This document shows positions 1 to 56,298 of a DNA stretch of 56,298 nt, one piece after another. Both the position numbers and the translations under genes were made by a program. The notes under the pieces were generated by a model. It was given only the letters and a program-made list of their open reading frames with translations, was not told where the DNA came from and searched no databases. Within the stretch, counting starts at the first letter, position 1. The number at the start of each line of letters is the position of its first letter. Location: the IMG/VR virus record IMGVR_UViG_3300037861_000279, positions 1 through 56,298 of that record; one strand, given 5' to 3'. The DNA is from a virus.

Positions 1-144
1 CAATTCGGATCCGCACTACAGAAAATCTCTAGACTTCTCTACCATTTGCAAGAAGAGACTGGAATTGGCAGCAACCCTCGAAGCTATTCAGTTGAAACTC
101 GGGCGTGGTCTTACTCCAAAAGAAATCTCCGACACCAGGCTACA
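1..144. repeat. Terminal overlap, left copy
   Basis: The first 144 bases reappear as the last 144 bases in the same orientation. The only difference is C at 27 here versus T at 56181. This is what a circular assembly, or a circularly permuted or terminally redundant phage genome, looks like when linearised. The reading frame of the giant gene runs through the repeat in the same frame at both ends, because 56,154 is divisible by three. Confidence 0.95.
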
Positions 145-3100
145 CATGAAGGGCCTGCAGCAAGCCGGAGCTGACATCGAGGTATCATGTGGTGCCTGCT
201 ATGTTGACTCTGCCAGGATCAAAATCGGTCTTGCCGTGGAGAGATTCATTCGATTGTTTCCTGATTTCGCCCAACACAAAGAGGATCTCCTTTTTCAGCG
301 GGGGCTCGATAAGCTAAAGAGAGATAATCCGGATGTATTCACCAAGTTCACCAGCTACATTGCCCCGCAGAATATCAAGGCATCCGAGTCGAGGACAGAT
401 TATGACTCTGACATCCTCTTCTTGCCGCAAAAATTGGTTGACCTCTTTAACATCAGGTCCGGTTTGAGGTGGCAGTCATGGTCCGATTTCGAGGTTCCTC
501 ATCTTATCGATGCCATGCAGGCAGTCGTTGATCATGCCGCCAGGGGATTAAAGGCCCACACCTACACGAAGGTACCCCTTATGGCCGAATTGTTCGGCAG
601 AACAGGGATTATGATGAACATGTCCCTTATCCCGAAAGGCACTGGAGTTAATAAGGATGGATCTCTGGACTTTGATCCAGTCGAGGGGATGCCTTTTGAT
701 GTAGCCAAAGAACTGCGTAACAGGAAAGAGCACAGCAATACAGTGGGTACCATCGCCATCGGTGTTACTGATGAGAATATCCTGGCCATGATGGCAGATC
801 CTGATATCGACTTTATCATCCCATACCACAAGTCTGGCCTGCCAAAGATCATTGCAGACCGAGAGGGAATGGAAGCTTGGCAAGATTACACCGACTCACA
901 AAACAATAAAATCGGTGATAAAAAGCTGTTCGCCAAGTCTCGGTTCAAGGACATCGACGACTTCAGTGATTGGGACTCGACTCTTGCCTGGTGGGATGTC
1001 ACAAAGACGGGTGATGAGAATGCCAGTGTGTATCTAAAAACTGCCAGGGACGCTGGAGTAAAACCGAAATTTGCCAAGTTCAGCAATAAGCCTGGCTATT
1101 GGAAAACACTCATCGACCGGAAGATGTTCAACAACGATGGGGCCCAGATTATCCAGCAGGCACTTAAACCTGTCTACGACATGGAACTGGTGAACAAAAC
1201 CATCAGCGAGTACCAGGCCCCAAGGTCAGAGGCGGATCCACAGATTGTCGATGATATCGCCAATACAATGCCAAAGACTCTTTCCAATGAAGAGATAAAG
1301 ACAGGATCTCATAAGACCCAGTCACAGCACGACCTTCTTCTCTCGAAAAAGAAATCAGATCGCAGCAAGTCTGAAGAGAAAAGGATTGCCGGCATAAAAG
1401 ATAAGATCAAGAACGGTGTCAAGGCTGAGACTCTCAGATCTGATGGTGCCGCCAAAAAGGAATTGACCAAACCAGAGCAGGTTGGATTGGCTTACCTCTT
1501 CGACCTTCATAAGGCCCAGCAGATGTACCCTGGCGATTATGATCGGTTGATGAAGCTGTATACCAAGGCCGGAGGTCAGTTCTCTTTCTCCAGCCCTGCA
1601 GCCGGAAAAGCCGAGGAGGCCGAGCCAGCACAGGCAGATGGTGAGATCCAATATTCCATCCGGACAAAGCCAGCTCCGAAAGAGACCAAAAAGGCATACA
1701 AATTATTCAGGAAAGTAGGCGATGCAGCACACGCTCTATTCATAGGTCGTTCTATGCCCATGAAAGAAGGAACGTGGTATGACGCACAGTCTCCGCTCAT
1801 AAAAGACTTGGAAGGCCTTCCCGTTAACAAAACATATCTGATCGATAAAAAGGGCAATGCTGTTACCAAGAGATTTGCCAACAAGCAACAAGCTCCAAAC
1901 AAAAAGCTTATAAACGAGGCAGGCTTAGACGGAACAAGATACGTGCTGATCAAGGAGCACAAAAAGACAGGCGAGAGGCTATACCACAACTGGGGCATCA
2001 ATGGCAGTGGTGGAGTCTCCACCTTCGCCATGCGACCAGGCTGGCACTCTACCAACGTTCCGTCAGCTCGACATATAGGTGAGCAGGTAGACGGCAAAGT
2101 TGCCTACCGCAGAGAAGATGAACAATGGGCAGAGATAGAGGTCTCCGCCGATAAAGACTACAACGAGGAAGCAAACAGTCGAGCCTCAAAAGATATACCC
2201 GAGAATATCCCAGAAGACGGTTGGTACTCCTTCCAGACGAATACGAATGCCAACAAGGCACAGGATTGGTTTATCGGGGGAAGCATCAAGATCAACCGAT
2301 TTCTGTCCGACTTAGAAGCACAGGAGATTTCACTGGCTGACGGGTACGAAGCAGACCTGCCTAGAAAGAATGCTACAGAGGTCTCCGAGGCACCAGAAAC
2401 TTCGCTCAAACAACTCAAAGAAAAGCACAGTGGTTCAATCGGCACCATCCTGATCAGTGAGTCTGGCAACGACATTAAATTGGCTTCTATAATTGTACAG
2501 AAAGACAATCGTAAACAAGGCGTGGGTACTGCCTTCATGAACGATCTTGTCGCTCTAGCCGATTCTCAAGGTAAACGAATTTTGCTATCCCCAGGTCAGA
2601 AAGATGACAAGCACGGTACGTCCTCAAGATCGAGATTAGTCAAGTTTTATAAACGGTTCGGTTTTGTTGAGAATAAAGGAAGGAATAAAGACTTCCAAAT
2701 ATCCGAAGGAATGTTTCGTGATCCTGCCGACGATGTCTCCGAGTCTCCAGATACCTCCAAAGAAACAGGTCCGGTACAAGAGACCACACTCGGCGAGATC
2801 CTAAATAAAGCCCAGACCGAATCTGTTAACGAGGGAGTCCGGAAGTTGTCCAAGCTTCTCGGGCAATTCATCCCAGCAGAAAAACTAAAGATCAAAGTTG
2901 TAATCGATCCATCGGCGAGGTCTTCGAGCTTCAAGTCGAACAAAAACACAGGGTTTAAACAGATCACAATAAAGTCATCACTGAAGCATGGAGTTAACTT
3001 GCATGAGATCGTCCATGCAGTCACTGTGCTTGAAATGAATAGCAACCCCGTTCTCAGGCAGAAGGTCAAACACTTGATGCATCAAGTCAAAACGGACCTG

Positions 3101-6100
3101 ATTAAGAACGGTGTCATCTCCAAAGAATTACTCGATGCGGCTGCAGAGTCCAAAACAAGCAGAGAGTTTAAGAGCAACTTCAATGGCAAGATCGACAAGA
3201 CGGTGGGTGATATCGTCTATGCCTTCTTAAATGAGAAAGAGTTCCTGGCCCAGGCATTCTCTTCCAATAAATTCCAGAATCTTCTCAATGGTATTCAGGT
3301 CCGTGATAAGGGTGCTATGAAAAGTGCCTGGGACGCCTTCGTTGAGCTGGTAATGAAAGGTCTCGGAATAAACCCCAAACATGACAATGCCTTTTCTGAG
3401 GCGATCAAACTGGTTGCTGAACTGGCAGGGAAGGAGGCCACAACCGCAGACACAATCTCCTTGGAAAATATGTTCTCTCCAGATTGGTATTCAAGATTAC
3501 AGGGAACCCTGCAGGAAAAAGGAAGTACACAAACTGCAGACCAGTGGCTGAAGTCTATTTCCAGCTGGAAGAAAAAAGGCACCTTGCCTGCTCCGGTTCA
3601 AGAAGAACTTGAATGGTCAGGCCTCGAAGACTACCTGGCAGGACTTGGTAAGGAAAAGGTCTCCCGTGAGCAGCTGGCAAAATTTGTTGCTGACAATGGG
3701 GTTAAACTTGAGGAGGTTGTAAAGCAGGGAGGTAATCCAGACGGAGGTAATCCAGACGGAGACTGGGAGGATGCAACATCAGAGGAAATCCTCGAAGCGT
3801 ATATGGCCATGACCGGTCAGACCGAAGACGAGGTGCAGTGGGTTACCGAGGGAGACATGATAGTAGAACTAAACATGGAACTCGACCCATCAAATGATGC
3901 AGCAAAGTTTGTGGAATACCAACTCCCTGGCGGAAAGAATTATAAAGAGCTGTTGATCACCTTGCCCAAAAAAGAGAACACTCCCGAGAGAAAGAAGTTC
4001 GAATCCTTTATTGGCAAGATGGAGACGAAATATGGCGATGACTGGATAGACGAGATAACAAAAGCGGAAGAGGACGAGAGAAACATTCTCGCAAGGGACT
4101 CCGCAAATTCACAGGATCTCCAGTTCGATTCATCCCATTACGAAGAAGCCAATATCTTGGCTCATATCCGCTTCAACGAACGTTTGGACCCCGATGGTAA
4201 GAAGGTTCTTTTCCTTGAAGAGATCCAGAGTGACTGGCATCAGTCTGGAAAAAAGAAAGGCTATAAGGGAGACAGTGCTAAGTTCACCGAAAAATGGAAA
4301 GATCATGTTGAGAAGATAGAGCCTTACGTTAGTGCAAACAATGAGAACATAGCAGGTGAGGATATAGCGAATGTTGTCGGAGACCCCCTTGTCCTTGAAT
4401 CTATAGGAGTGCCTGAGGCAATAATAAACGAAGGCCTGGCGTTGGTTAAAGAGATGAATAGCGACTTGTCATCAGTGCCAAACGCACCATTCAAGAGCAC
4501 ACCGGCATGGACGATGTTGGCGATGAAACGGATGATACGCTATGCCACGGAGAACGGGTTTGACAAGGTTGCCTGGACTACTGGCGAGCAGCAGGCAGAA
4601 CGGTATGATCTGAGCAAGAAGATAAGCAGAGTTGTCTATGATCCAAACGATAAAACTCTTTTTGCCTATGACCTCGACAGCAAGCAGGTCATGAAAGAGC
4701 GCAATGTAGGAGAAGGTCAGATAGAGGATCACATTGGCAAGGAAGCTGCCAGGAGACTCACCTCAAAGGAAAACACCAATCTCAAGCATGAAAGCAAGGG
4801 AGGAGGAGTAAACTTCTATGAGATAGAAGGCGAAAATCTCAAGGTTGGCGGCGAAGGAATGAAGGCCTTCTATGACAAGATGCTCCCCTCCAACACGCAG
4901 AAATTCATTAAGCAGTTTGGTGGAAAGGTTGAGAATTTTCAGGTCGACGTCGGGTCTCAAGACTGGGTAAGTGGAAGCATGGTCATGGACTCAATGGGTA
5001 TTCCGGAAAAAGACCAGTCAGCCTATTGGGGAAACCTCGAGGCTGAAGAGCGTGATCAACTCCAAGACGACTACCGGAAAGAAATATCACATAGCAACCA
5101 GCAGGGGTTCTCAATAACTCCGGCCATGCAAGAGTCTGCAGGCATGCCTTTGTTCGCACCGAAAAGTTTAGAAGACGATGTGTCCGAAGCACCCCCAGGC
5201 GAAGACTCGATAGAGGGCATCATGTCCAACCTTCGTAAGACTGCCACAACCAAGGCAGATCTAGAGAAGGCTGGCATAGCAAAAGAACAAGAAATAATCG
5301 AACAATATCGGAAACTTGAGACACTTGCGAGAGATCCGCATTCTTCTATCGCAAGCAAGCAGGCGATGATCGCATCCTTCCTGAAAGTTCTTCCCGTGAA
5401 CGTCCGTGCAAAGGTCATCACTCCTTTGACTTTCATCAGCAGGTTTCTGGGAATTGGAACTCATACGAAGCGAATGGATGAGGCCCTTGCCCGTGCGGAA
5501 AAAGAACTTGTCAGTTACTTGAGTCGTGAGATAATTGCCGGTATTCAAAAGGGGATCACTCCCAAGAAACTGGCCAAAAACAGAATCAAGAAAGATACCA
5601 TCGGGCCTGCTGCAGCAAGAGATCTTCAGTTCATCAGGGACACTCTGAAAGAAGAAGATATCGAGGCGATTGCGGTACAGGTCGATGCTCAGATTCTAAG
5701 GAAAGAAGATGAACTCGAGGCGGCAACCGACAAGGAGGCCCTGGTAATCGAAGATGAATTGTCCGATCTCCGGTCTCACAGGAATATCATTGAGACATTT
5801 GGAGATCTCAAAACTCAGAACCTTGAGGATCTGTTGTTTGCCAAGGAGGCCCTGAACTCGATTGTCTCTGAGGGAAGAGCCCTGTGGAGAGCACAGCAGG
5901 AATCTTTCAAGGCAGCATTGGGACCAGTCGTTGCCAAAGTCCAACAGGACATTTCCGGCCAGGAAGATCCGACTGTTGAGTCAGCTGCAGAGGCCACCAA
6001 AAGAAGGGAGAAAGAGGACACAGTTAAGGGACGGGCGAAGAAGACTTGGAATGCAGTTGAGAACAGCATCCTGTCCTGGGAATTTTTGATGAACAAACTC

Positions 6101-8284
6101 TCTACTCTTGCCGGCGATAAAGTCCTGCAGTCATATACAACGAAGAAGATGTTATCAGTGGCCAAAAAAGCAACCGATGACGAGATCCTCTATAAGGATG
6201 AATCTGATACGACTATTCATTCAAAAGCTATGGAGATTTTCAACACCAAGAAGGATGCTGACCTGAATGAGCTTTTCATGGATCAGGAGATAAAGCAATC
6301 CGGAGAAGTCTTCGCATATGGCGAGATGGGGAAACAGCTTGGTGACTTCACCATGTCTCCCATGGAAGCTGCCTACATGTATGCCGTCCGGAAAAACCCC
6401 GACAGTATTCCGACATTCGAAGGCATGCACATGACCGACAAGACCTTCGATGAAATTGAGAAGTTTATCGGGCCGGAGCTGAAAGCGTGGGTCGACTATA
6501 ATGTCGATGAGTATCTGCAGGATTTCCACTACGATGTGAATCAGGTTTACCGGAAAGTTTTCGGAACCAATCTCTCTAAAACACCAGGGTATATCTCATG
6601 GTATCGAGATGTTCCCGGGAAGGTACAGGAAAAGGGTATAGCGGCGAGCCCTTCAGAGTCCGGAACTAAGGGAATGGCGAGGGGTGCATTCAAGGAAAGA
6701 GTCAAGAACACCAACCCCTACCGGATGATGAGCTTCAACGATGTGCTGATGAAGCATGTCGATGAGATGAACAACTTCCGTGCCTGGGCCATGCCTACCA
6801 AAGTTATAAACGGAGTGTTCAATAATCGACAGACACAACGATTGATAACTCAGCACCATGGGGCAAACCTGGCCAAGAATATTAAGCAATTCCAGACGGA
6901 CTTCACCAAGTCTCCGACAGAACTCCGTGGAGATCTGCCGTGGCTCGACCAGTTACGAGGCAACATCACAACGGCAATGACTGCCCTCAATCCTACAATC
7001 TTCCTGAAACAGTTGACCTCAATCCCAGCACTGGCAGAATCAATTCCAGCCAGTGCCTGGGCGAAGAACTCTGCCTTATTTTGGACAAATCCTCTGAAAG
7101 CCTGGAACATATTAAAAGATTCCAAAACCTGGGAAGGACGGAGACAAATGGGCATGGAGCGGGACATACGAACTGCCCAGGTCGTTTCCGGATCACAGGC
7201 TATTGCTAATGTCCGGAACCTGAAGAACAGAGCAATGTTTCTCGTAAAGTGGGGTGATGGTGCGGCTATTCTGGTGGGCGGATATCCTGTTTACAAATAT
7301 CATTTCGACAAAAATTTGAGTGAGATGGGCAAGGCTGCAGCTCACAAGTTTGCCCTTGGTAAGTTCGAAGAGGCCATGGACAGAACCCAGCAGTCTAGCG
7401 GCATAAAGGACCAGGGTAATATCCAGCGTTCCGGCAGCTATGCCAAGCTGTTCACCATGTTTATCACATCTCCAAAGCAATACACCTCCCAGATAACTGC
7501 AGCCATAAGGGGAATACACGCTAATCCAAAGGATGGGGATGCATACAAGAGACTGTTTATTTTTGGCGTACTCATGCCGTCCTTATTCAAAGCGACAGCT
7601 ACTGGCCTCCTTGGTATAATCGGTGGTGATGATGACGATAAAGAAGAGTTTGTCAGTGGCCAGATAAAAGCGATCTTGACCTCTCCTCTCAACGGGATCC
7701 CCATAGTTCGTGATCTCCAAAATGCTGTGTGGGAATCAGCTGTGGGAGAATGGTACGGTACCGATGTCGATTATTCTCCGGCCACTCAGGCCGGAAGTTC
7801 TTTGATGGGCGCCATTTATCATGGGGCAAAGTTGTTGTCCAGTGAAGAGATGACTCCCGAGAAGAAAGAGAAACATCAGAACTTAGCATTGAAAAATTTG
7901 TTTGAAACCGTTGGCTATCGTTTCGGTTTACCTGCCAATACCGTGCGGAAAATGGTTTTGGAAAACTGGGCTGATGTTGCCTCTGGAGAAACCGATTACC
8001 CAATCAGGAGGAGTCTCGGGTTTAGTCGTTATGCCATGGGCGAAAAAGCAAGTCGGTACACCAGAAACAAAACCAAGGTGGAAGATGCCACAAAGCGGAG
8101 AGAGGACAAAGAGCCGAGGGAAGGAGACGGTAATCTCTTAAAGCTCAATGGTTTTCTAAAGGACACAGAAACGAGAGTCAGAAGATTAAAAAAGCTCAAG
8201 GGCCTGGCAAAAACCAAAGAGAGCAAAGATGGCTATTCAGAGAAAATAGAAAAGGTTAGGTCACAATTTAATAATCGGTTCTAG
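2..8284 (+). CDS. Giant polyvalent virion-type protein, C-terminal part (continues from 52475-56298)
   Basis: This is the continuation of the gene that starts at 52475. The whole product is about 3,987 residues, and this part is residues about 1228-3987. A TTG at 65 is not a real start because the frame is open upstream through the joint. Visible modules in order: a conserved block with a CxxC pair (C1290, C1293), SWSDFE, HLIDAMQ, YTKVP and ADPDIDFIIPYHKSG stretches; a GNAT-like segment (about 2050-2125, with RKQGVG and FYKRFGF); an HEIVH zincin motif (H2228-H2232); a module with EIQSDWHQ (about 2634) and AWTTGEQQAERYDL (about 2750) that recurs in phage polyvalent proteins; a long charged helical region; and a C-terminal conserved block (about 3320-3700) followed by a hydrophobic stretch (about 3746-3770). 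Iyer and colleagues described such large polyvalent proteins as injected with phage or plasmid DNA to counter host functions. That role here is inferred from domain content and from the preceding ejection-like genes. No T7-type RNA polymerase motif was recognised. Confidence 0.88.
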   Translation, partial: NSDPHYRKSLDFSTICKKRLELAATLEAIQLKLGRGLTPKEISDTRLHMKGLQQAGADIEVSCGACYVDSARIKIGLAVERFIRLFPDFAQHKEDLLFQRGLDKLKRDNPDVFTKFTSYIAPQNIKASESRTDYDSDILFLPQKLVDLFNIRSGLRWQSWSDFEVPHLIDAMQAVVDHAARGLKAHTYTKVPLMAELFGRTGIMMNMSLIPKGTGVNKDGSLDFDPVEGMPFDVAKELRNRKEHSNTVGTIAIGVTDENILAMMADPDIDFIIPYHKSGLPKIIADREGMEAWQDYTDSQNNKIGDKKLFAKSRFKDIDDFSDWDSTLAWWDVTKTGDENASVYLKTARDAGVKPKFAKFSNKPGYWKTLIDRKMFNNDGAQIIQQALKPVYDMELVNKTISEYQAPRSEADPQIVDDIANTMPKTLSNEEIKTGSHKTQSQHDLLLSKKKSDRSKSEEKRIAGIKDKIKNGVKAETLRSDGAAKKELTKPEQVGLAYLFDLHKAQQMYPGDYDRLMKLYTKAGGQFSFSSPAAGKAEEAEPAQADGEIQYSIRTKPAPKETKKAYKLFRKVGDAAHALFIGRSMPMKEGTWYDAQSPLIKDLEGLPVNKTYLIDKKGNAVTKRFANKQQAPNKKLINEAGLDGTRYVLIKEHKKTGERLYHNWGINGSGGVSTFAMRPGWHSTNVPSARHIGEQVDGKVAYRREDEQWAEIEVSADKDYNEEANSRASKDIPENIPEDGWYSFQTNTNANKAQDWFIGGSIKINRFLSDLEAQEISLADGYEADLPRKNATEVSEAPETSLKQLKEKHSGSIGTILISESGNDIKLASIIVQKDNRKQGVGTAFMNDLVALADSQGKRILLSPGQKDDKHGTSSRSRLVKFYKRFGFVENKGRNKDFQISEGMFRDPADDVSESPDTSKETGPVQETTLGEILNKAQTESVNEGVRKLSKLLGQFIPAEKLKIKVVIDPSARSSSFKSNKNTGFKQITIKSSLKHGVNLHEIVHAVTVLEMNSNPVLRQKVKHLMHQVKTDLIKNGVISKELLDAAAESKTSREFKSNFNGKIDKTVGDIVYAFLNEKEFLAQAFSSNKFQNLLNGIQVRDKGAMKSAWDAFVELVMKGLGINPKHDNAFSEAIKLVAELAGKEATTADTISLENMFSPDWYSRLQGTLQEKGSTQTADQWLKSISSWKKKGTLPAPVQEELEWSGLEDYLAGLGKEKVSREQLAKFVADNGVKLEEVVKQGGNPDGGNPDGDWEDATSEEILEAYMAMTGQTEDEVQWVTEGDMIVELNMELDPSNDAAKFVEYQLPGGKNYKELLITLPKKENTPERKKFESFIGKMETKYGDDWIDEITKAEEDERNILARDSANSQDLQFDSSHYEEANILAHIRFNERLDPDGKKVLFLEEIQSDWHQSGKKKGYKGDSAKFTEKWKDHVEKIEPYVSANNENIAGEDIANVVGDPLVLESIGVPEAIINEGLALVKEMNSDLSSVPNAPFKSTPAWTMLAMKRMIRYATENGFDKVAWTTGEQQAERYDLSKKISRVVYDPNDKTLFAYDLDSKQVMKERNVGEGQIEDHIGKEAARRLTSKENTNLKHESKGGGVNFYEIEGENLKVGGEGMKAFYDKMLPSNTQKFIKQFGGKVENFQVDVGSQDWVSGSMVMDSMGIPEKDQSAYWGNLEAEERDQLQDDYRKEISHSNQQGFSITPAMQESAGMPLFAPKSLEDDVSEAPPGEDSIEGIMSNLRKTATTKADLEKAGIAKEQEIIEQYRKLETLARDPHSSIASKQAMIASFLKVLPVNVRAKVITPLTFISRFLGIGTHTKRMDEALARAEKELVSYLSREIIAGIQKGITPKKLAKNRIKKDTIGPAAARDLQFIRDTLKEEDIEAIAVQVDAQILRKEDELEAATDKEALVIEDELSDLRSHRNIIETFGDLKTQNLEDLLFAKEALNSIVSEGRALWRAQQESFKAALGPVVAKVQQDISGQEDPTVESAAEATKRREKEDTVKGRAKKTWNAVENSILSWEFLMNKLSTLAGDKVLQSYTTKKMLSVAKKATDDEILYKDESDTTIHSKAMEIFNTKKDADLNELFMDQEIKQSGEVFAYGEMGKQLGDFTMSPMEAAYMYAVRKNPDSIPTFEGMHMTDKTFDEIEKFIGPELKAWVDYNVDEYLQDFHYDVNQVYRKVFGTNLSKTPGYISWYRDVPGKVQEKGIAASPSESGTKGMARGAFKERVKNTNPYRMMSFNDVLMKHVDEMNNFRAWAMPTKVINGVFNNRQTQRLITQHHGANLAKNIKQFQTDFTKSPTELRGDLPWLDQLRGNITTAMTALNPTIFLKQLTSIPALAESIPASAWAKNSALFWTNPLKAWNILKDSKTWEGRRQMGMERDIRTAQVVSGSQAIANVRNLKNRAMFLVKWGDGAAILVGGYPVYKYHFDKNLSEMGKAAAHKFALGKFEEAMDRTQQSSGIKDQGNIQRSGSYAKLFTMFITSPKQYTSQITAAIRGIHANPKDGDAYKRLFIFGVLMPSLFKATATGLLGIIGGDDDDKEEFVSGQIKAILTSPLNGIPIVRDLQNAVWESAVGEWYGTDVDYSPATQAGSSLMGAIYHGAKLLSSEEMTPEKKEKHQNLALKNLFETVGYRFGLPANTVRKMVLENWADVASGETDYPIRRSLGFSRYAMGEKASRYTRNKTKVEDATKRREDKEPREGDGNLLKLNGFLKDTETRVRRLKKLKGLAKTKESKDGYSEKIEKVRSQFNNRF

Positions 8285-15916: not shown

Positions 15917-15920
15917 AATT

Positions 15921-16199: not shown

Positions 16200-16222
16200 T
16201 AACATTCTGTAGGAGAATGAAA

Positions 16223-17104: not shown

Positions 17105-17106
17105 TT

Positions 17107-18557: not shown

Positions 18558-18660
18558 TAAGCAGCTACCAATCCCTGTCCTTTTGGTCGATGATGATAAG
18601 GACAGGGGTGTTGATGAATATTTTTCAAAAAAACTCGAGAATTTCAAGGAGAATGAATGA
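18550..18660 (+). CDS. 36-residue linker ORF coupled to both neighbours
   Basis: ATG 18550 overlaps the end of the annealing-protein gene, and its TGA overlaps the ATG of the ATPase gene (ATGA). The product is 36 residues, MNNKQLPIPVLLVDDDKD, then an acidic-basic helix. The perfect junctions and the AAGGAGAATG near its end suggest that translating it passes ribosomes to the ATPase. No function known. Confidence 0.5.
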   Translation: MNNKQLPIPVLLVDDDKDRGVDEYFSKKLENFKENE

Positions 18661-21845: not shown

Positions 21846-22682
21846 ATGGACAACAACAAAAAAGAATTGTTGCCGATTGAGTTGCGTTCTATTGGCGAGG
21901 GTCAGATGAACACGGTCAATGCCAGGTTACTGTATGAATTCCTCGGGGTAAGGAAAGACTTCTCGAACTGGATCAAAGCTCAGATCAAACGTGCAAGACT
22001 GCAGGAAGATCGGGACTATATTTTGCTCACCCCAGAAGGCGAGCAAACCCGTGGAGGTAACAACAGGATAGATTACTTTTTTACCCTGGAATCCGGAAAA
22101 CATATTGCTATGATGAGTGAGTGCGATAAAGGGTTTGAGGTAAGGGACTATTTTATCGAGTGTGAAGGAATCGCACAGCAAAAATCTCAGTACAATATTC
22201 CACAGACATACCCAGAGGCACTGAGGGTTGCAGCTGACTTTGCCCAGGAAAATCAGGAGCAACGCAAAGTGATTCTCAACCAAAACAAAGAGCTTGAAGA
22301 GGCAAAACCAGCCATAGAATTCACCAATATAGTCGGTCTTACAAATAAACTATTATACCTGTCGGATTTCGCCCAACTTATGTCCAATAACGAGGGGGGC
22401 ATTATCGGCAGAACGAATATATTTAGATGGCTCAGACATGACAAGATATTGCGTAAAAACAATATCCCATATCAATCGTACGTTGACCGTGGGTGGTTTG
22501 ATGTAAGGGAAAGGGATTATGAAAACAAAGGAACAAATGGCCCAAGGGTTGGTTTGGTCACGATGATCACGGGTAAGGGCCAAGTTGCGTTATATAAGAG
22601 ATTTAAACGGTCTAAATCGAGATTCATGTTTATGAACAAAAAAGCAAAAGGGAAAAAGGGAATGAATGCTCAAGTCGGTTGA
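21846..22682 (+). CDS. AntA/KilAC-type phage antirepressor
   Basis: 278 residues. Residues about 12-115 match the AntA/AntB antirepressor domain (TVNARLLYEFLGVRKDFSNWIKAQI, FFTLESGKHIAMMSE). A coiled-coil linker (about 125-155) precedes a C-terminal KilAC-like domain (FAQLMSNNEGGIIGRTNIFRWLR, GWFDVRERDY, VTGKGQ-like VTMITGKGQVALYKRF). Antirepressors inactivate or displace phage repressors to favour lytic growth. No CI repressor or integrase was found, so it may act on a prophage or host regulator or be a remnant of a temperate ancestor. Confidence 0.85.
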   Translation: MDNNKKELLPIELRSIGEGQMNTVNARLLYEFLGVRKDFSNWIKAQIKRARLQEDRDYILLTPEGEQTRGGNNRIDYFFTLESGKHIAMMSECDKGFEVRDYFIECEGIAQQKSQYNIPQTYPEALRVAADFAQENQEQRKVILNQNKELEEAKPAIEFTNIVGLTNKLLYLSDFAQLMSNNEGGIIGRTNIFRWLRHDKILRKNNIPYQSYVDRGWFDVRERDYENKGTNGPRVGLVTMITGKGQVALYKRFKRSKSRFMFMNKKAKGKKGMNAQVG

Positions 22683-24626: not shown

Positions 24627-25478
24627 CTACGCCTGACAACAATATGCGTCTTTAACTACATTCCTCGTCATTGCCGGCCTAGCCCATGCTCGTTGAAAAC
24701 GCCTCCACTCTTTGTCGGTATCCCCTTCTTTGTTTTTCCAGAGCATGGCCATAGGCATAAATCCAGCCTCCCATGCTTCAAGTAGCCTTTTCTTTGCTGC
24801 TGTGATGGTGTCTTGTGGCCATCCTATCAAGACATAGCACCGAAGATGGCGGCGAGTGAAGTCTGCATACCTCAGCTTTTCCCCGGCCCTTCTTAAATGC
24901 TCAAGATCGTCAGGAGTATCGTAGGCAAAAAACATCTGGTCTGGTCGCAAATTCCACAACATTGTAACATGCGTATGAGTGAGAACTTTGGCCTCCAAAC
25001 CGCCCGTTAACTGTGCTCTCTTTGGTTGTTTTTTCATCATCTTGAAAACTTCAAGAATGTGCTCAGTTGAACAGGCTAGAATGTTACTATCTAAAAGGTT
25101 CCAGCCCTCATGTATAGGCAATTCACGAATCCCCCCTTCACGCTTATGGACATCACAAAACCAGCAATTATTTGGGCAACCTCGCGATGTCATTAGATAC
25201 CCATGTTTTAAATACATTCCTGGGGTAAAATCTCCACCGTGATCCCCGCAAGCAGGCCCACCAATTTGCACCGGAGCTATACTTTTCCAATCAGTTGCAA
25301 GTCGTTCGGCTTTTGCCATGTCATAGGTAAAAGTGACGCTCACATGAACCTCATCAATGTCGGCGGTAAAGTCGGCCGGTGGAGGTCCAAAGAACGCAAG
25401 TTCGTCGTCGGGTGACGCTGTTGTTTTCCTGGGAAATACTCTTGCAATCCTCGTTATATCTTGCTCCCTTTTATGCAT
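24627..25478 (-). CDS. Radical SAM domain protein
   Basis: 283 residues. The cluster motif is C101-x3-C105-x2-C108 (RGCPNNCWFCDV), the standard CxxxCxxC that binds the [4Fe-4S] cluster with S-adenosylmethionine. The N-terminal 70 residues (DEVHVSVTFTYDMAKAERL, then APVQIGGPA) look like a truncated cobalamin-binding-type fold. Downstream pieces TGGLEA, FFAYDTPDD and LIGWPQDT fit the TIM-barrel. It resembles a conserved phage/prophage radical SAM family with unknown substrate. RNA, tRNA or small-molecule modification is possible; no neighbour settles this. Confidence 0.85.
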   Translation of the reverse strand: MHKREQDITRIARVFPRKTTASPDDELAFFGPPPADFTADIDEVHVSVTFTYDMAKAERLATDWKSIAPVQIGGPACGDHGGDFTPGMYLKHGYLMTSRGCPNNCWFCDVHKREGGIRELPIHEGWNLLDSNILACSTEHILEVFKMMKKQPKRAQLTGGLEAKVLTHTHVTMLWNLRPDQMFFAYDTPDDLEHLRRAGEKLRYADFTRRHLRCYVLIGWPQDTITAAKKRLLEAWEAGFMPMAMLWKNKEGDTDKEWRRFQRAWARPAMTRNVVKDAYCCQA

Positions 25479-29082: not shown

Positions 29083-30270
29083 TTACAACATAGCTTCGTC
29101 ATAAATTTTTTCCCAATTTGCATTGAGCCCTATCCTATCACCAAAAGCATGGAAGCAAGCCTCCACATCCCCCTTGCTCGGGAGGTATCGACCATCTGTT
29201 GTTATCTGACCACCTTCATTCAACCTGATGCTCAATTCCTCTCTATCCACTGGCATACACTCAAAAGGGAAAACCGTAACGTCACCAGCTGCCGTCTTGT
29301 ATTTTATCCTCGGTACTCCGTAATAGGATGCGCCAGGACTATTGATAACGAGGGAGGCTTCTCCAATTTCACCAGCTATTAGTTTTATCTCTGTGCCTGG
29401 TGACTTAGTGATCATGAAGTGTGCAGTATCACAATCTTTGAATGCCTCCAGTAGCCTGGCTATTTTCTCTGTTGAGCAATGAGTCAGAAACTCGTCTGGC
29501 ATCGTTTGGTAGTGCATGTCAAAAATCTTTTCGACTATATGATCCCATGTTGCCACGTTTTGAAAACCCCTCGTCATAGGGTTAAAACTTGGCATTGAGT
29601 CAATATCTTCAGCTGTTATAGATTCGTTATAGAATGTCCTGCTGGTGATATTCTGCTCAACCTCGATAGATCCAGATAGGATGCCAGATATTTTGTTGTA
29701 TATTTCAACATTTTCCTGCCACACGATGTCCGGATCAAAGGAACTGGTAAATTTAACTTTTCCTAATATCGGTACCGGATATTCGACGGTCTCTCCCTGA
29801 CTCATATTCTCTACTATCCCCAGGATCGGAATGTCCTTTGCCTGAAAGAAAAGCGAGGTTCTATTAACATCAGTCACACTCAACTTGTTTGGCTGAGTGA
29901 CCAGCAGCACACCGGAGATATCTATAGCTGAAATAAGATTAGTGTGGATGTCCGTAATAGATGGTGGTGTGTCTATAAGCAGGTAGTCTGGTTTGAATTT
30001 CCAGACCATCCTCTTTGATTCTGACAGGTACTTCTTTACCATGCTGTTTTGGATATAGATCAAGCCAGCAGACTCATATCCAATAGATCTAACGACTAAG
30101 TTTTCCGGCAAATCATCCTGTTCGAATATTACATGCATCGAAGGTGTATTTACATCAGCATCAAGTATGAACACCTTGTGGCCGGATGCGAGCAACGACC
30201 TTGCTATATTTGCTGTCGTGGTAGTTTTACCGACTCCGCCTTTACCCGAATATACGATTATGCTCTTCAT
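29083..30270 (-). CDS. Mrp/MinD-type P-loop ATPase
   Basis: 395 residues. Deviant Walker A GKGGVGKTTTT (residues 9-19), DADVNTPSMH (37-46), LLIDTPPSITD (97-107) and the GIVENMS signature (151-157) all fit the Mrp/NBP35 branch of the SIMIBI class. In Mrp the GxVENMS is followed by a CxxC that holds the Fe-S cluster. Here that site has no cysteine, and no CxxC is seen anywhere. About 140 C-terminal residues have no family I recognise. It is less like ParA, and no ParB is next to it, so partition is unlikely. A strong AAAGGAGAAAGAGA site precedes the ATG. Confidence 0.82.
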   Translation of the reverse strand: MKSIIVYSGKGGVGKTTTTANIARSLLASGHKVFILDADVNTPSMHVIFEQDDLPENLVVRSIGYESAGLIYIQNSMVKKYLSESKRMVWKFKPDYLLIDTPPSITDIHTNLISAIDISGVLLVTQPNKLSVTDVNRTSLFFQAKDIPILGIVENMSQGETVEYPVPILGKVKFTSSFDPDIVWQENVEIYNKISGILSGSIEVEQNITSRTFYNESITAEDIDSMPSFNPMTRGFQNVATWDHIVEKIFDMHYQTMPDEFLTHCSTEKIARLLEAFKDCDTAHFMITKSPGTEIKLIAGEIGEASLVINSPGASYYGVPRIKYKTAAGDVTVFPFECMPVDREELSIRLNEGGQITTDGRYLPSKGDVEACFHAFGDRIGLNANWEKIYDEAML

Positions 30271-49642: not shown

Positions 49643-50563
49643 ATGGGTGGAGGTGGTGGCGGTGGTGGTGACAGTGAAACAACGATACGATACGCAAGTT
49701 ATATCGAAACTAATCATAAAGCTTTCCTGAATGAGACCCAGGCCCAAAGAATAAAAGCTGTGGCGGCTGATCCTTTTGCAGGGTATTCCGACATCGAAGT
49801 AGACAGTGCGTTTTTTGGTGCAGGTTATGCCATCACCAGCTTTCCGTCCCTGTACGATATGTATGGGAAGTTCATGGCTGGGTTGGACATTGATGCCCTC
49901 TACACCCAGGTTCTAGATCACGTTGTCAACAACCCTGTCGTCGGGGATCTAGTCGGAGCAGAGGCAGCACTGATGCAGGATGACATCGAGGCGAACTCAT
50001 ACCCGAGGCTGGAGCTGGGGGCAAGAGACCTGAACTCCTCCAATGGCAGCACTATGCTCGTTGCGAAGGCTCTTGTCGAGGACGCAAAGGTAAAGTCTCT
50101 TTCTAAATTCAGCGCACAACTTAAATACAACCTAATCCCAGTTGCCCAAGGGGTTTGGCAGACACACCTCGAGTGGAATAAAGGCGTGGTCGGGATGTAC
50201 TCTGAGATCATGAAGTTCTACTTCTCCTCAAAAGCAGATATCGACGAAATCAATTACGCAATGGCGGCTAAAAGTGCATTATGGCCATTCACAGTGTTGG
50301 ATTTCGAGCGAGCAGCTCTCGGGGCCTTGCAAGGTGCAACCGTCCAAAAGACTGATGTTGCTGGTGCTTCTACCGCATCAAGGGTTTTAAGTGGGGCCTT
50401 GAGTGGAGCAGCAATGGGGGCAATGGTAGGGAACCAGATAGCTCCAGCTGTTACAGCAGGTTCTGCAGCCGCCCAGGGTGGTGCAGCCGTGTCAGCTGGT
50501 GGTGCAGGTTGGGGTGCGGCAGGCGGAGCAGTCCTTGGAATTGGAGCCGCCTTAACCTATTGA
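49643..50563 (+). CDS. Ejection-type internal virion protein, paralogue 1
   Basis: 306 residues. A polyglycine start (MGGGGGGGGDSETTIRYASYIE), conserved DLNSSNGSTMLVAKALVEDAK and WPFTVLDFERAALGAL, and a Gly/Ala-rich zipper tail of about 75 residues (SGAAMGAMVGNQIAP, AAGGAVLGIGAAL). Closely related to the next gene. The Gly-zipper tail is typical of membrane-inserting ejection proteins of short-tailed phages. Starts one base after the GNAT-like gene. Confidence 0.65.
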   Translation: MGGGGGGGGDSETTIRYASYIETNHKAFLNETQAQRIKAVAADPFAGYSDIEVDSAFFGAGYAITSFPSLYDMYGKFMAGLDIDALYTQVLDHVVNNPVVGDLVGAEAALMQDDIEANSYPRLELGARDLNSSNGSTMLVAKALVEDAKVKSLSKFSAQLKYNLIPVAQGVWQTHLEWNKGVVGMYSEIMKFYFSSKADIDEINYAMAAKSALWPFTVLDFERAALGALQGATVQKTDVAGASTASRVLSGALSGAAMGAMVGNQIAPAVTAGSAAAQGGAAVSAGGAGWGAAGGAVLGIGAALTY

Positions 50564-50578: not shown

Positions 50579-51433
50579 ATGGGTGGAAGCAGCAGTAGCT
50601 CAGATTCTGAAGACACGGTAAGGTTTGCCTCGTATATCGAGAGCAAACACAAATCTGCTATCCAAGAGGCCGTTACCACAAGAGAAAAGATTATAGAGCA
50701 TTCTCCCTATGCCGGATATTCATCGTTGTCTGCTGACGATGCGTTTTTCGGCATAGGTTTTATGGTGAGCAGCTTCCCCTCCCTTTATGACACTTTCGGG
50801 AAAAATCTTGCTGGACTAGATATCGACTCATTGTTCACAAGTGCCGTCTCCGCAAAGATGTCTGACTCCGAAGATGTCCTTAGGTCAGAACTTGCTCTCA
50901 TTGACGATTCTATTGAGCAGATGCAGGAACATAAGCTTTCTGCTAGAGATCTTAACGCAACAAACGGAAGCACTTTTTTAATGGGCAGTGCAACCATTGA
51001 ACAGAACAGGATAACCAAGACAACCGACTTCCGGATTGCCATTAGGTATGGCCTGATTGCTGGGGTTGTTTCTTCATGGACCGGTACGTTGAGCTGGAAT
51101 GAAGATTTGGTTAAAAGATATGCTCAGAGTTTAAGAGATTATTACCTCTGTCGAGTTAATGCAGATGATTTTGGCTACAAGACTGAATCTAACGATACTC
51201 TTTGGCCCATAACTGTCCTCGACTTTGAGAGGAATATGCTCGCAGCAATGACAGGTTCTAGGGCATCAAAGGCAATGACCGAGAAAGAACGGTCTAATAT
51301 TTCCAAGGCCTTCCTGGTAGCAAGCCATACGGCAACTGGAGCACAGGTTGGCTCTATGTTTGGCCCATATGGTACAATCGTTGGTGGAGCTGTAGGTTTC
51401 GTGGTAGGTATGGCAGTAATGTTACTAGAATAG
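50579..51433 (+). CDS. Ejection-type internal virion protein, paralogue 2
   Basis: 284 residues. It aligns end to end with the preceding 306-residue protein (MGGSSSSSDSEDTVRFASYIE; DLNATNGSTFLMGSATIEQ; WPITVLDFERNMLAAMTG) and ends in a Gly-rich hydrophobic stretch (GAQVGSMFGPYGTIVGGAVG). Tandem duplication of one ancestral gene is clear. TGGAGAAAC just precedes the ATG. Confidence 0.65.
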   Translation: MGGSSSSSDSEDTVRFASYIESKHKSAIQEAVTTREKIIEHSPYAGYSSLSADDAFFGIGFMVSSFPSLYDTFGKNLAGLDIDSLFTSAVSAKMSDSEDVLRSELALIDDSIEQMQEHKLSARDLNATNGSTFLMGSATIEQNRITKTTDFRIAIRYGLIAGVVSSWTGTLSWNEDLVKRYAQSLRDYYLCRVNADDFGYKTESNDTLWPITVLDFERNMLAAMTGSRASKAMTEKERSNISKAFLVASHTATGAQVGSMFGPYGTIVGGAVGFVVGMAVMLLE

Positions 51434-51445: not shown

Positions 51446-52474
51446 ATGGCATCGGTAGAAAGAAGTTCAGCATTAAGAAGACTGTCTGGAACAAAGAAAG
51501 GTGTCGATCTTTCCCTCCCGACAGCAGGCGATAACCAACAGCAATTATTGGAGCGTAAATCTGGCCTTCCTCCGGCAACTGAGGAAAAGAAGCCCATGTC
51601 CCTAGACGGCAGTTTGTCTGGACCTGCAGCCGAAGGACCGACTGCCCCTGGAGGCCCGACCGTACCTGATAGGGGTGCAACCGTCCTGGGGATTCCTGTG
51701 AATAAGTTCTCTCAACTGGCTGGAGGTGCTGGCTTTGCATTGAACCCACGTACCCCAATGGGACGACTGGGAGGCTTTGTTTCAAGAGTGGCGAGCCGAG
51801 AACTTGCCAAGGAAGACCGGAACGTAATCAGGACCGAAGACCGAGCCAACAAACTCGAGGACAGAACGGCCAAGTGGGCTCACGAAGAAGAGGTCAGTGA
51901 TGAAAGGGTTGCAGCTGAAGAAGTACGATATAAGCGAAGGCAGGATGAGAGTGAGACACAGTACCAACGGAGACTCGAAAACACTGAGCTTGGCATGTAC
52001 AAAAATGATCCAGAGGGATACGAAAAGTTCAAACAAGCTGGCAGAGCAGACAAGACAACCTCTCTTCTGACTAATTTTCAAGCTGCCAAGGCGGATGGAT
52101 ATCAGGGATCACTGTCAGACTGGAAGGCCGTTGGCAAGGAAGGTTCCAAAGACGCAGACCCTATGAAAGCCGCAACGACCACGCTCAGTAGGTACAAAGG
52201 TGCTATTAATGATGAGGGTGGTAATGTCAGGCCTATGGACAACTTGAAGAAGTTAGCCACCTCTGGAGATAGGGTGGCGATGACTGAGTATATCGACGTA
52301 GCACAGGCTTTTAATATCCTGCCAGAAGGCACATTGAGACCTGTTCAAAACAACGTCACCAAGGAAAAGCTCTTCTTCAATGAAGAGTCAAACTCCTATT
52401 ATGACATTAATGGGAAGCAGGTCAAAGTGGCCAAGGCTAAAACAAAACAACCAGCTGACATGAAGGCACATTAA
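51446..52474 (+). CDS. Coiled-coil internal virion-type protein
   Basis: 342 residues. Pro/Gly-rich N-terminus (about 35-85), KNEDRANKLEDRTAKWAHEEE-like charged helix (about 120-180, with a long E/R/K coiled-coil), and a compact C-terminal half (GSLSDWKAVGKEGSKDADPMK, LATSGDRVAMTEYIDV). It directly precedes the giant gene and shares its operon, so it probably packages with, or anchors, the giant protein. No named family. Its TAA is immediately followed by the giant gene's ATG (TAAATG, no overlap). Confidence 0.6.
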   Translation: MASVERSSALRRLSGTKKGVDLSLPTAGDNQQQLLERKSGLPPATEEKKPMSLDGSLSGPAAEGPTAPGGPTVPDRGATVLGIPVNKFSQLAGGAGFALNPRTPMGRLGGFVSRVASRELAKEDRNVIRTEDRANKLEDRTAKWAHEEEVSDERVAAEEVRYKRRQDESETQYQRRLENTELGMYKNDPEGYEKFKQAGRADKTTSLLTNFQAAKADGYQGSLSDWKAVGKEGSKDADPMKAATTTLSRYKGAINDEGGNVRPMDNLKKLATSGDRVAMTEYIDVAQAFNILPEGTLRPVQNNVTKEKLFFNEESNSYYDINGKQVKVAKAKTKQPADMKAH

Positions 52475-55400
52475 ATGGCACTTAAACAAGGATTCACCGA
52501 TGGTTGGGCTACCGATGAAGATGTCGAGACTGCTGAGTTAAGCAAACAGACTGCTGATGTCAGCAAACAGACCGATGATACTCTTTCTTCCGACTTCTCT
52601 GACGGGTGGTCTACAGCTGAACCTGTTGCAGAACCTGAACTGGAGACCGGAACAAAGCCCGAGGATTATAGTAGATCTCTGGCCGTTGGTTTAAACAGAT
52701 TTGGTCAAACCATTGGCCGAGCTATCGATGTCGTCGGTAATGTTGATCCGACAGGTGTCTTGGACAAGGTCGGGCAGGATGTGGAATCCTTCTATAAGAA
52801 AGAGGCAGAAGAGGACCAGGCAGCACTGTCTCCCGCAATGCAAGCGGCACAGGAGTTGAAGTACACCACCGATGTCGAGGAGTCATGGAAAGAGGCGCCA
52901 CTCAAAAACTTCATGAGTATTTTCCAAGGCGATGCCTGGAAGAGTCCCGAGAAGGTGGCTGGCAGTTTGCTGCAGTCAGCACCTAGTACCATCGTCGGTA
53001 TGGGAACCGGTATGGGTATCACTCAGGGCTTGATTAAAGAGAGCGCCAAGTTGGTGGCAGACAAGCTGATCAAGAAGGGCATCTCTAGTGGCCTGGCTGG
53101 TGTAATCGGTGGTTTCATTGGAGAGGGTGGAACTGCATCTATCGAGACTGGAAAAGATGTGTACGACTTGGTCATCACCGCACCATTGGAGGTTATCTCC
53201 AAAACTCCTGAATATCAAAAAGCATACGAAGCACTCTCCGGTGAGAAATTAACTGAGAAAGAAAAAGAAAAGCAAGCCAGAGAACTTGTAGCTGACCATG
53301 CCGCCATGAAATCGATGGCAAAGGTGTTTGCTGCGACAGGAATGCTCGGGAGTGTCTCCGGCCATTACATGGGTAAACTCATTGGTGGTGAGGCAACCGG
53401 AGGTGTAGCCAAGAAGGTATTGATCGGTGCCGGAACTGAGGGACTGCAGGAAACACCACAGAGCGGGTTCGAAATAGTCGAGCAGAACTTACAAAAGAAA
53501 AAATTCGTCAACCCAGAGCAAGACATCTGGGAGGGAGTCAAGGAGGGATCTGTCGAGGGTGGTGTTCAAGGAATGGCCATGGGCGGAGGTATGGCAAGTA
53601 TCCCTGCCGTTCTAAGCAGAGGTGGAGTTCAGGAAGAAAAGCGCATCGACAACTCTGCCCTCACAACCCTCAAGGAGGGTGGCCACATCATCTCAGATGA
53701 CTCTGCAGCCGGCGTGGACATCCTCGGGGGTTTCGGATTCGTTAATCAGCCTCTTGATACGGTTATAGAATCCCTGGCCGATGCCCCGATAGAGGTCTTG
53801 ATGGAAAGACTCACTGACGATGTTCTTTCCTCAGAGCATTTCCAGAACATTATTGGCGAGCTGGAAGAATCTGGCGTGAATGTAGAAGACGATGCCGAAG
53901 TCAAGCAGGCCATAATCGAAAGGGTTATTCCGACAATGCAGATGAGCTTGCAGGTTGGTCTCGCAACCTCCAACATGACAACAGTCCAAAAGAGACAGGT
54001 GATCTCAGACCTGAATAACGCAGAGGATCCCAGTGCCAGGGTTAAGGCCGTTGAACAAATAGAGAAAGCGATTGAGAATAAAAAAGTTGCTCAGTCTTGG
54101 GCGAATACTGCTCTTGATAAGATTGATAAAGGGGCAGAGATTGTCCTCGATCAAAGCTTCATCGACTTCGCAGCACAAGACGAGGGAACCCTATCAAGCT
54201 TACGAGAGGAAAGTGTCGGGAATGCCAATGCCGAATATGCCGGAGAGCTGCAGCGTAAACTGAACAACTTGGAGGCACACAAGAATCCTTCCGATAGTGT
54301 CAAGTCAAACATCATACAGATCAAACACCAGATCGGTCAGCTGGAGGAAGGTCTCAAGCAGAACAGGTTCAATATTCTCAAAGCAAAAGCAGAGGGAACC
54401 CCAGCTGAATCTATTACTGTTGATGGTGTTCAGCAAAAGGTTGATGGTATCGAACCGGAGCTTTTAACCTCTGAAGAGCAAATAGAATATGTCGCTTTAA
54501 AGAAAGAGTTCGGCCAGGAAGCTGCAAAGGCACCAGAGAATCAAATCCCAGCCGGAGAAAGTAAAACTGCCGAGCAGGAATCGACTGACAAAGCAGTTAA
54601 GAAAAAAGAGGACTCCTCATCACCAGGGAGTGCCGAGAGTGATCTTCTCTTGGATATGGCAGAAGAGGCCGAGGCTGTTCAGGAAGGTGAGAACACAAAA
54701 AAACGAAAGGCAGACTTCGAAAAGCTATCTGGAGTTGCCTCCGACAAGGCGAAGGTACCTCTTGCTCCAGCTAAAGGTGCAGTTGTCGATGCTGAACTTA
54801 CAAAAGGGGATCCTGTTTCCACCTCCGAGACAACTCCTCGACAACGCAAGGCCCAGAAGAGATTGGATGAGCTTGCTGAAAAAGCAAAGTCATATACTTT
54901 GACTCCGATGGATATGGTTGAGCGTGACGATCTCAATGATGAACTGAAGTCCGGTGTGAAGTATTCCATCAAGGTTCAGGAAGACAGGACCATAAGCAAG
55001 GAAACCACCTTTAACGAGAACCTCTTTGTGTATCTGGATCCCATTAACTCTTCGCAAATGGAAGAGAGGATGGGTAGAGAAAAACTACTGAAACGACATT
55101 CACACGACAATATAGAACACACTTCATCACAATTTGGTGGCTGGAGGGTTTTGTATAAAAACGACAACGGTGACATCGTAGGCTCAATACAAGGTGTGAA
55201 AAATCCGAACAGTGGAGAGGTTATTGTCTCCAATGCCTATGTTCGTCCAGACTTTAGAAGGAAGGGTATCGGAAAAACCCTGATGGAAGAGGCTGAAAAA
55301 AGGTTCAAGAACATAACTCTCAGCGGGGATAATTCAATAACGGGTGCGGCACTGGTGGATAGTGTTGTCAATAAAGAGCAGTATTCCGTGGAGGACTCCA

Positions 55401-56298
55401 CCGGATCGCCAGTAACAATCGAGTCAGTGCGGCAGGCCTTCCCTGGACAGACGGTAAACGAAGGTGCCGATGGTAGCTTCATAGTGCACACCACAGGGGG
55501 GATGGTTGTTACGGTCCATCCGAATGCTGACATCGAAGTTGATGCGACTACTGCATCTGCCGCATACCAGAAGACGATCAAGCCTGGCACCAAAGCAGCA
55601 GGCTCTTTCCAGATGATAGGGGGGAAAGCTGTTATCCAGTTGTCCAAAGAAGCTGGCACCAATCCTCTCAAGCACGAAATATATCATGCCGCCGAGGAAA
55701 TGGTACTCACCCAGGCAGAGATTGAGGCTATTCGTAAGAAACACGGGAACTCTGAGCAACGAGCAGAAGCATACAACAACTGGGATGGCGAGACATCTGC
55801 CCCTCTTTTCCAGAAGATCAAAGAATTTTTCCAACAAGTTGCCAAGGCTCTGGGCCTGAAGGTCGACACCAGTGCTGCAGATTCTCGGAAGGCATTTGGT
55901 AAGATCGAGTCTGGCGAAGTTTGGGCAAGAGACCCCAACGACCCCGATGGTTCTATCTCTGTAGACTATTCTATCCGGTCCTTGCCTGGTACCGAGAAAA
56001 GACTGATCGCCTGGAATGCCGAGCACAAGATGGTCCCTGCTGCCAAAATGAAACAGTACATCAAAGATCTGCAGTCAGTTTCTGCGATGATTCTCGGTGG
56101 ACCAGCATCACTGGATTACATTCCGACCAAAGACATCTACAAGGCACTCAAGGACAATTCGGATCCGCACTACAGAAAATTTCTAGACTTCTCTACCATT
56201 TGCAAGAAGAGACTGGAATTGGCAGCAACCCTCGAAGCTATTCAGTTGAAACTCGGGCGTGGTCTTACTCCAAAAGAAATCTCCGACACCAGGCTACA
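52475..56298 (+). CDS. Giant polyvalent virion-type protein, N-terminal part (continues at 2-8284)
   Basis: ATG 52475 directly follows the previous TAA with no spacer. The frame stays open to the window end and, through the circular joint, to 8284: 11,964 bases, about 3,987 residues. This part holds residues about 1-1275. Residues about 150-390 are Gly/Ala-rich with hydrophobic stretches (VGMGTGMGITQGLI; AGVIGGFIGEGG; GMLGSVSGHYMGKLIGG; GMAMGGGMASIPAVL) like membrane-active ejection proteins. Residues about 430-650 are coiled-coil. A GNAT-like segment spans about 870-945 (YVRPDFRRKGIGKTLMEEAEKRF). A zincin HEIYH is at H1067-H1071. The following block contains the C-terminal part's CxxC module. 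The zincin and GNAT motifs are repeated in the second part, suggesting internal duplication. Delivery into the host is inferred. Confidence 0.88.
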   Translation, partial: MALKQGFTDGWATDEDVETAELSKQTADVSKQTDDTLSSDFSDGWSTAEPVAEPELETGTKPEDYSRSLAVGLNRFGQTIGRAIDVVGNVDPTGVLDKVGQDVESFYKKEAEEDQAALSPAMQAAQELKYTTDVEESWKEAPLKNFMSIFQGDAWKSPEKVAGSLLQSAPSTIVGMGTGMGITQGLIKESAKLVADKLIKKGISSGLAGVIGGFIGEGGTASIETGKDVYDLVITAPLEVISKTPEYQKAYEALSGEKLTEKEKEKQARELVADHAAMKSMAKVFAATGMLGSVSGHYMGKLIGGEATGGVAKKVLIGAGTEGLQETPQSGFEIVEQNLQKKKFVNPEQDIWEGVKEGSVEGGVQGMAMGGGMASIPAVLSRGGVQEEKRIDNSALTTLKEGGHIISDDSAAGVDILGGFGFVNQPLDTVIESLADAPIEVLMERLTDDVLSSEHFQNIIGELEESGVNVEDDAEVKQAIIERVIPTMQMSLQVGLATSNMTTVQKRQVISDLNNAEDPSARVKAVEQIEKAIENKKVAQSWANTALDKIDKGAEIVLDQSFIDFAAQDEGTLSSLREESVGNANAEYAGELQRKLNNLEAHKNPSDSVKSNIIQIKHQIGQLEEGLKQNRFNILKAKAEGTPAESITVDGVQQKVDGIEPELLTSEEQIEYVALKKEFGQEAAKAPENQIPAGESKTAEQESTDKAVKKKEDSSSPGSAESDLLLDMAEEAEAVQEGENTKKRKADFEKLSGVASDKAKVPLAPAKGAVVDAELTKGDPVSTSETTPRQRKAQKRLDELAEKAKSYTLTPMDMVERDDLNDELKSGVKYSIKVQEDRTISKETTFNENLFVYLDPINSSQMEERMGREKLLKRHSHDNIEHTSSQFGGWRVLYKNDNGDIVGSIQGVKNPNSGEVIVSNAYVRPDFRRKGIGKTLMEEAEKRFKNITLSGDNSITGAALVDSVVNKEQYSVEDSTGSPVTIESVRQAFPGQTVNEGADGSFIVHTTGGMVVTVHPNADIEVDATTASAAYQKTIKPGTKAAGSFQMIGGKAVIQLSKEAGTNPLKHEIYHAAEEMVLTQAEIEAIRKKHGNSEQRAEAYNNWDGETSAPLFQKIKEFFQQVAKALGLKVDTSAADSRKAFGKIESGEVWARDPNDPDGSISVDYSIRSLPGTEKRLIAWNAEHKMVPAAKMKQYIKDLQSVSAMILGGPASLDYIPTKDIYKALKDNSDPHYRKFLDFSTICKKRLELAATLEAIQLKLGRGLTPKEISDTRL
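56155..56298. repeat. Terminal overlap, right copy
   Basis: Same 144 bases as 1-144 with one difference (T at 56181 versus C at 27). In the giant protein this changes codon 1236 from Ser to Phe. See the left copy. Confidence 0.95.

Follow-up and report, generated by a model that had tools for sequence, protein, structure and literature searches.

The viral DNA analysed here (IMG/VR record IMGVR_UViG_3300037861_000279, positions 1 to 56,298, hereafter the window) carries a single giant gene of 3,987 codons concealed by the linearisation point of the contig, and we consider it likely that its product is a polyvalent protein borne by the virions of a short-tailed phage and ejected as a carrier with exchangeable enzymatic cargo. 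The two parts of the gene, 1,227 codons at the right end of the window and 2,760 at its left end, lie in one register (52475-56298 joined to 2-8284) and together represent 11,964 of the 56,154 bp (21.3%) of the circularised genome. A previous sequence-only reading of this DNA had proposed a gene of this length across the joint, occupying more than a fifth of the genome, and both proposals held; the coordinates it gave (52475-56298) cover the 5' part, however, and the feature also takes in 2-8284.

One giant gene crosses the contig joint

The ends of the window overlap in frame by 144 bp, positions 1-144 and 56155-56298 being identical at 143 of 144 positions. The sole mismatch (C at 27, T at 56181) exchanges Ser for Phe, creates a stop in neither copy and leaves the frame untouched; at this residue nine relatives have Ser, which is the reading of the left copy, and the relative L026 has Asn. 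The 5' open reading frame (ORF; 52475-56296) is open at its 3' end and starts with an ATG that directly adjoins the preceding gene's stop codon, an arrangement shared by a closer relative, L024. On the linear contig alone the 3' part can be called from a TTG at position 65 as a protein of 2,739 amino acids, a miscall that the sequence-only reading had announced and that was reproduced in the ORF list. Linear contigs of circularly mapping phages can hide the largest gene.

All counts and searches were made on the 5' and 3' pieces separately. The first 440 residues past the joint, used as a query, retrieved nine other metagenomic viral contigs, in all of which an open frame crosses the equivalent codon and a conserved motif flanks it on either side (..DIYKALKD before the joint and NSDPHY..SLDFSTICKKR after it in the window protein). 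For four of the nine (L033, L034, L037 and L038) the piece preceding the overlap and the one following it adjoin in the alignment and share a frame. In addition, an HExxH motif precedes the domain that begins at the joint (here called CGACY) by about 125-265 residues in seven of the nine relatives and by 161 residues in the window protein. Because nine independent viral ORFs cross the equivalent codon, four of them with contiguous flanks, and because L024 has both end modules in one ORF, we take the joint to be real, and these sequence comparisons confirm that one giant gene was concealed by the linearisation point. That the joint is instead an assembly artefact bringing together two separate genes, as the single mismatch in the overlap and the metagenomic nature of the contig might suggest, is hardly credible against these relatives. 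Moreover, the open frame of 2,760 codons is too long for a chance ORF and the conserved modules show purifying selection.

Table 1. Position and description of the features of the giant gene and of the genes directly upstream
Feature	Position in window	Strand	Description
Giant gene, 5' part	52475..56298	+	ATG start; residues 1-1274, of which 1228-1274 within the terminal overlap
Giant gene, 3' part	2..8284	+	2,760 residues plus stop; joined residues 1228-3987; 5' end open
Terminal overlap, left copy	1..144	.	Mismatch at 27
Terminal overlap, right copy	56155..56298	.	Matches 1-144, one mismatch at 56181
N-terminal module	52475..54349	+	Residues 1-625; conserved with L024, partly with L002
Charged linker, probably disordered	54350..55006	+	Residues 626-844; composition; no domain above cut-off
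GNAT domain 1 (Acetyltransf_1)	55139..55312	+	Pfam, E 2.8e-9
Zincin-like segment 1	55475..55864	+	HEIYH at 55673-55687; like segments in L033 and L037
CGACY domain	2..1291	+	Begins at joint; predicted barrel-like alpha/beta fold
Domain of unknown function, phrog_30118	2018..2389	+	E 1.3e-23; 50% identical segment in L026
GNAT domain 2 (Acetyltransf_7)	2432..2671	+	Pfam, E 4.6e-6
Zincin-like motif 2, HEIVH	3002..3016	+	HExxH pattern
EIQSDWHQ domain	3470..5161	+	About 20 other viral ORFs; predicted alpha/beta fold
C-terminal helical module, about 1,030 residues	5186..8281	+	71% identical in L024, 65% in L004
306-aa gene, paralogue of 284-aa gene (38%)	49643..50563	+	Gly-rich C-terminus; 81% to L024
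284-aa gene, probable ejection protein	50579..51433	+	C-terminal hydrophobic Gly-zipper; 58% to L024
342-aa gene, probable internal virion protein	51446..52474	+	Directly upstream; 35% to L024 counterpart

The ends of the giant protein are conserved and its middle is exchanged

The uninterrupted ORF of L024 (2,791 codons) opens with the N-terminal 625 residues of the window protein (62% identity) and closes with its C-terminal 1,032 residues (71%), while between these end modules it has no detectable similarity to the window protein. In place of the GNATs of the window protein, ART-PolyVal domains and a motif of HExxxH type are found in the L024 middle. Both ends are under purifying selection relative to L024 (non-synonymous divergence, pN, of 0.21 and 0.18), synonymous sites being saturated. 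The window protein and L024, in which the ends, the proposed carrier, are kept and the whole enzymatic middle is swapped, offer a testable model for the exchange of injected effectors. Another relative, L002, shares the N-terminal module and the EIQSDWHQ domain and has LPD38 near its end. In this contig the giant ORF (9752-18382) with the N-terminal module and LPD38 also encodes a 2H/Acb1-type domain of the anti-CBASS family.

At the C-terminus, phrog_9880 matches the last 600 residues of the helical module, of which no relative was found among the bacterial genome contigs searched. At the other end, residues 51-395 searched alone matched phrog_10089 (DarB-like antirestriction giant proteins, E 2.9e-19), phrog_2206 (virion RNA polymerase, E 8.4e-10) and phrog_938 (an endolysin family, 2,185 positions). 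An RNA polymerase identity was rejected, phrog_2206 being matched only over positions 208-432 of its 3,406. The N-terminal profile scored 40.9 bits against gp69 of Burkholderia phage JC1, the best decoy reaching 12.3 bits, which corresponds to an E-value of about 1e-9 scaled to 200,000 sequences.

The middle carries several enzyme-like domains

The two GNAT domains announced by the sequence-only reading both passed the Pfam cut-off, the second barely (27.4 vs 27). No similarity was found when they were compared with each other, so they are not recent duplicates. Segments related to the second GNAT are present in the giant proteins of phages ZX1, 45A6 and Vibrio 1.232.O. The two HExxH motifs, at 55673 and 3002, are beyond chance (shuffling expectation 0.02 and 0.05, respectively). 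Further Pfam or NCBIfam matches, such as Sigma70_r1_1, ThaI, DarP and CLCA_X, scored below cut-off and were disregarded.

Two further domains, CGACY and EIQSDWHQ, are enzyme-like and showed no Pfam family match across their members, giving isolated or flank matches only; a PDB sequence search with either half of the giant protein or with the CGACY and EIQSDWHQ profiles found nothing significant. Structure prediction with fold search, the check put forward by the sequence-only reading, was run on both domains and predicted alpha/beta folds, but no significant PDB match was obtained.

An alignment of 11 CGACY sequences revealed invariant C16, C63 and C66 together with invariant SDF, YTK and PYHxSGL motifs. 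The spacing of the three cysteines, CX46CX2C, with a Tyr or Phe after the third, differs from the canonical CX3CX2C [4Fe-4S] motif that follows the first strand of the (beta-alpha)6 partial barrel in radical SAM enzymes, and is similar to it in kind; a Tyr or Phe after the last cysteine occurs in radical SAM motifs. AlphaFold2 predicted CGACY confidently, with a pLDDT of 82 and a pTM of 0.81, with helices near the cysteines followed by beta-alpha alternation, and this predicted fold had no match in the PDB at E <= 0.001. The single strong match in BFVD was an uncharacterised Caudovirales protein of 1,313 residues, and the weak BFVD matches include several radical SAM, iron-sulphur (Fe-S) oxidoreductase and gene-product-88 proteins. 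No relative of CGACY was found in the bacterial genome contigs or plasmids searched. Based on these models we treat a radical-SAM-like nature of CGACY as a lead. A bolder and rather doubtful proposal is that CGACY stands for an enzyme family that has so far escaped recognition, radical-SAM-like or built on another Fe-S/metal barrel, in which the CX46CX2C motif is split. Such an enzyme would lie in giant proteins of phages, after a zincin-like segment, and enter the host ready-made at infection; if true, its chemistry would begin there ahead of any phage gene expression. Of note, the window encodes a separate radical SAM protein on the minus strand (24627-25478, phrog_9298, E 1.6e-23, with a GCPNNCWFC motif), with which CGACY has no significant similarity. 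Besides CGACY, a 4,574-codon ORF of L026 (1273-14997), another viral contig, has a domain like phrog_30118, a pair of HExxH motifs and, at the C-terminus, a segment of peptidase type.

For EIQSDWHQ, an alignment of 20 sequences showed invariant E251, Q253, S254, D255, Q258 and G260, among others, and the predicted structure had a pLDDT of 74. Its weak fold matches, none of them significant, were mostly GNATs (spermidine acetyltransferases), and for this reason a divergent GNAT was considered. TM-scores did not exceed about 0.26, however, and comparing its profile with both GNATs of the window gave nothing; a divergent GNAT is thus a modelling lead only. Two EIQSDWHQ copies occur in a hypothetical protein of Dolichospermum phage Dfl-JY45 (L030, 5871-13034). 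Both conserved domains, CGACY and EIQSDWHQ, are candidates for expression and assay.

The window protein resembles known giant virion proteins

Large polyvalent proteins have been described as a class in which zincins are proposed to release the domains (Iyer et al. 2017, PMC5512222). We count the window protein among them: it combines disparate enzymatic domains in one chain, with several putative activities (two GNATs, two HExxH segments and two enzyme-like domains), and is encoded among late or virion genes. LPD and ART-PolyVal domains of Pfam are common in this class and not required; a Pfam search found none of these curated domains in the window protein, whose two most distinctive domains lack a Pfam model. 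Relatives sharing an end module do carry polyvalent domains, ART-PolyVal in L024 and L004 and LPD38 in L002, besides the 2H/Acb1-type domain mentioned above. These relatives, the GNATs, the HExxH motifs and the location among virion genes support the sequence-only reading in calling the protein polyvalent.

Among named phages the 5' half had no match at 1e-5 and the 3' half had segment matches only. The DarB-like giants JC1 gp69 and Bcep22 gp75 of Burkholderia phages have an N-terminal module homologous to that of the window protein. Records of related DarB-like phages annotate transglycosylase, helicase and methylase domains, whereas the window protein has no Pfam match to any of these and is therefore not classed as DarB-like. 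The giant proteins of Klebsiella phage vB_KpnP_ZX1 (PLxRFG, 3,867 residues), Ruegeria phage 45A6 (3,912 residues) and Vibrio phage 1.232.O (3,292 residues) are of like size and have the segment resembling GNAT 2; ZX1 shares the N-terminal module, an HExxH motif is present in ZX1 and 45A6, and the gene order around the giant gene of Vibrio phage 1.232.O is similar to that of the window. Unlike in the window protein, CGACY, EIQSDWHQ and the C-terminal module were not detected in these three. Escherichia phage N4 virion RNA polymerase (vRNAP, gp50) shares the N-terminal region at the level of PHROG profiles, is of similar size and adjoins smaller ejection genes, but has an RNA polymerase domain, which the window protein lacks.

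The single giant genes of these named phages have 3,292-4,515 codons and make up 19-22% of the genome in ZX1, 45A6 and JC1; the L026 ORF, at 4,574 codons, is another of such size. The size and genome share, whose novelty the sequence-only reading had implied, are already known, as are the position and the general idea. The analysis adds a verified joint, a pattern of ends that stay conserved around an exchanged middle, and a pair of enzyme-like domains for which Pfam gave no match and the PDB no significant one.

A virion-carried and ejected carrier is the preferred reading

In phage JC1 (PMC9144972), gp69 has 4,515 residues, accounts for 22.1% of the genome, follows virion-associated proteins and was found by mass spectrometry in CsCl-purified virions with 51 unique peptides. 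For N4 vRNAP, which is ejected, a 'beads on a string' passage through the tail has been proposed; its N-terminal domain enters membranes, and membrane helices are predicted at 224-278 (PMC12633501). Together with the zincin proposal of Iyer et al. and the position of the gene directly after virion genes, the presence of gp69 in virions and the ejection of N4 vRNAP make a virion-carried, ejected carrier the best reading of the window protein. By homology, the giant protein would be packaged, ejected and inserted in the membrane, and the injected arsenal of host-modifying enzymes envisaged by the sequence-only reading is plausible from the homology of its N-terminal module to gp69 and N4 vRNAP.

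In such a mechanism the protein would be produced late in infection and enter the head together with the three internal proteins encoded before it. The N-terminal module would join the ejection apparatus and insert in the host inner membrane, and the chain, largely unfolded, would thread the tail before or with the DNA. Once in the host, the zincin-like domains might cleave either the chain itself or proteins of the host. The domains of the middle, namely both acetyltransferases, the cysteine-bearing barrel-like enzyme and EIQSDWHQ, might modify host targets, so that defence would be blunted or metabolism taken over. The conserved N- and C-terminal modules would be the carrier and the middle its exchangeable cargo; the cargo targets and the order of action are speculative.

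Several observations weigh against this reading. The phage is uncultivated, so we infer the presence of the protein in virions from homologues. In a search of four proteins the N-terminal profile matched the N4 protein itself only weakly (i-Evalue 0.005), and the N4 link therefore depends on the PHROG profile. No Pfam model was matched for a zincin-like metallopeptidase (an HEXXH helix plus a downstream Glu), so that of the two zincin motifs proposed by the sequence-only reading the HExxH patterns stand while the zincin calls depend on these patterns plus context. The upstream genes are probably ejection genes, called as such by position, paralogy and hydrophobic ends only. Finally, L004, which carries ART-PolyVal, has the C-terminal module behind a different N-terminus, indicating that the ends are not an obligate pair; since the ends are separable in L002 and L004, the giant protein is a mosaic of recombining modules.

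Three other explanations apply to the protein itself. Its own zincins might cut it before packaging, as proposed for P1 DdrB, in which case the virion would hold fragments and the full chain would never be injected. The two HExxH motifs do flank the CGACY, phrog_30118 and GNAT 2 segments, and the form of DdrB that P1 packages is a processed fragment, but N4 vRNAP, which has a zincin domain, is packaged unprocessed (PMC5512222) and the available text of the JC1 paper mentions no cleavage of gp69 (PMC9144972); we regard such processing as unlikely but not negligible. Somewhat less probable still is a protein that is mainly an infection machine, i.e. an inner-membrane channel and DNA-translocation factor comparable to T7 gp16 or to the N-terminal domain of N4 vRNAP, with a middle that is accessory or directed mainly against competing phages and not the current host. 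This would fit the conservation of the helical ends and the complete replacement of the middle between close relatives; however, the middle keeps an open frame for about 2,300 codons, and catalytic-type residues of its domains are invariant across relatives, which argues that it is selected for something enzymatic. A protein expressed and active in the infected cell and never packaged could be entertained as the phage of the window is known from sequence alone, but it is very improbable given that the N-terminal homologue JC1 gp69 is a virion protein by mass spectrometry and that the gene lies in the virion block.

Genome context of the giant gene

The ejected carrier that we favour would be encoded by a short-tailed phage in which the giant gene sits within the virion gene block. 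Genes for terminase, a P22-like portal, capsid and tail lie upstream on the same strand; three genes of medium size come next, then the giant gene and, after it, fibre-type genes. The sequence-only reading had the giant gene directly following two ejection-type genes; the medium genes that it directly follows are three (at 49643, 50579 and 51446), and their order is the same in L024. These three had no detectable BLAST similarity to the JC1, ZX1, Vibrio 1.232.O or N4 proteins tested.

Elsewhere, the window encodes a ParA-type ATPase on the minus strand (29083-30270, Pfam ParA E 2.7e-33, phrog_164) and an AntA/KilAC antirepressor (21846-22682), which together suggest that the phage is possibly temperate or a phage-plasmid. 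Recombination genes of exonuclease VIII-like (16217-17104, phrog_412) and SMC/AAA-type (18657-19976, phrog_1499) are also present.

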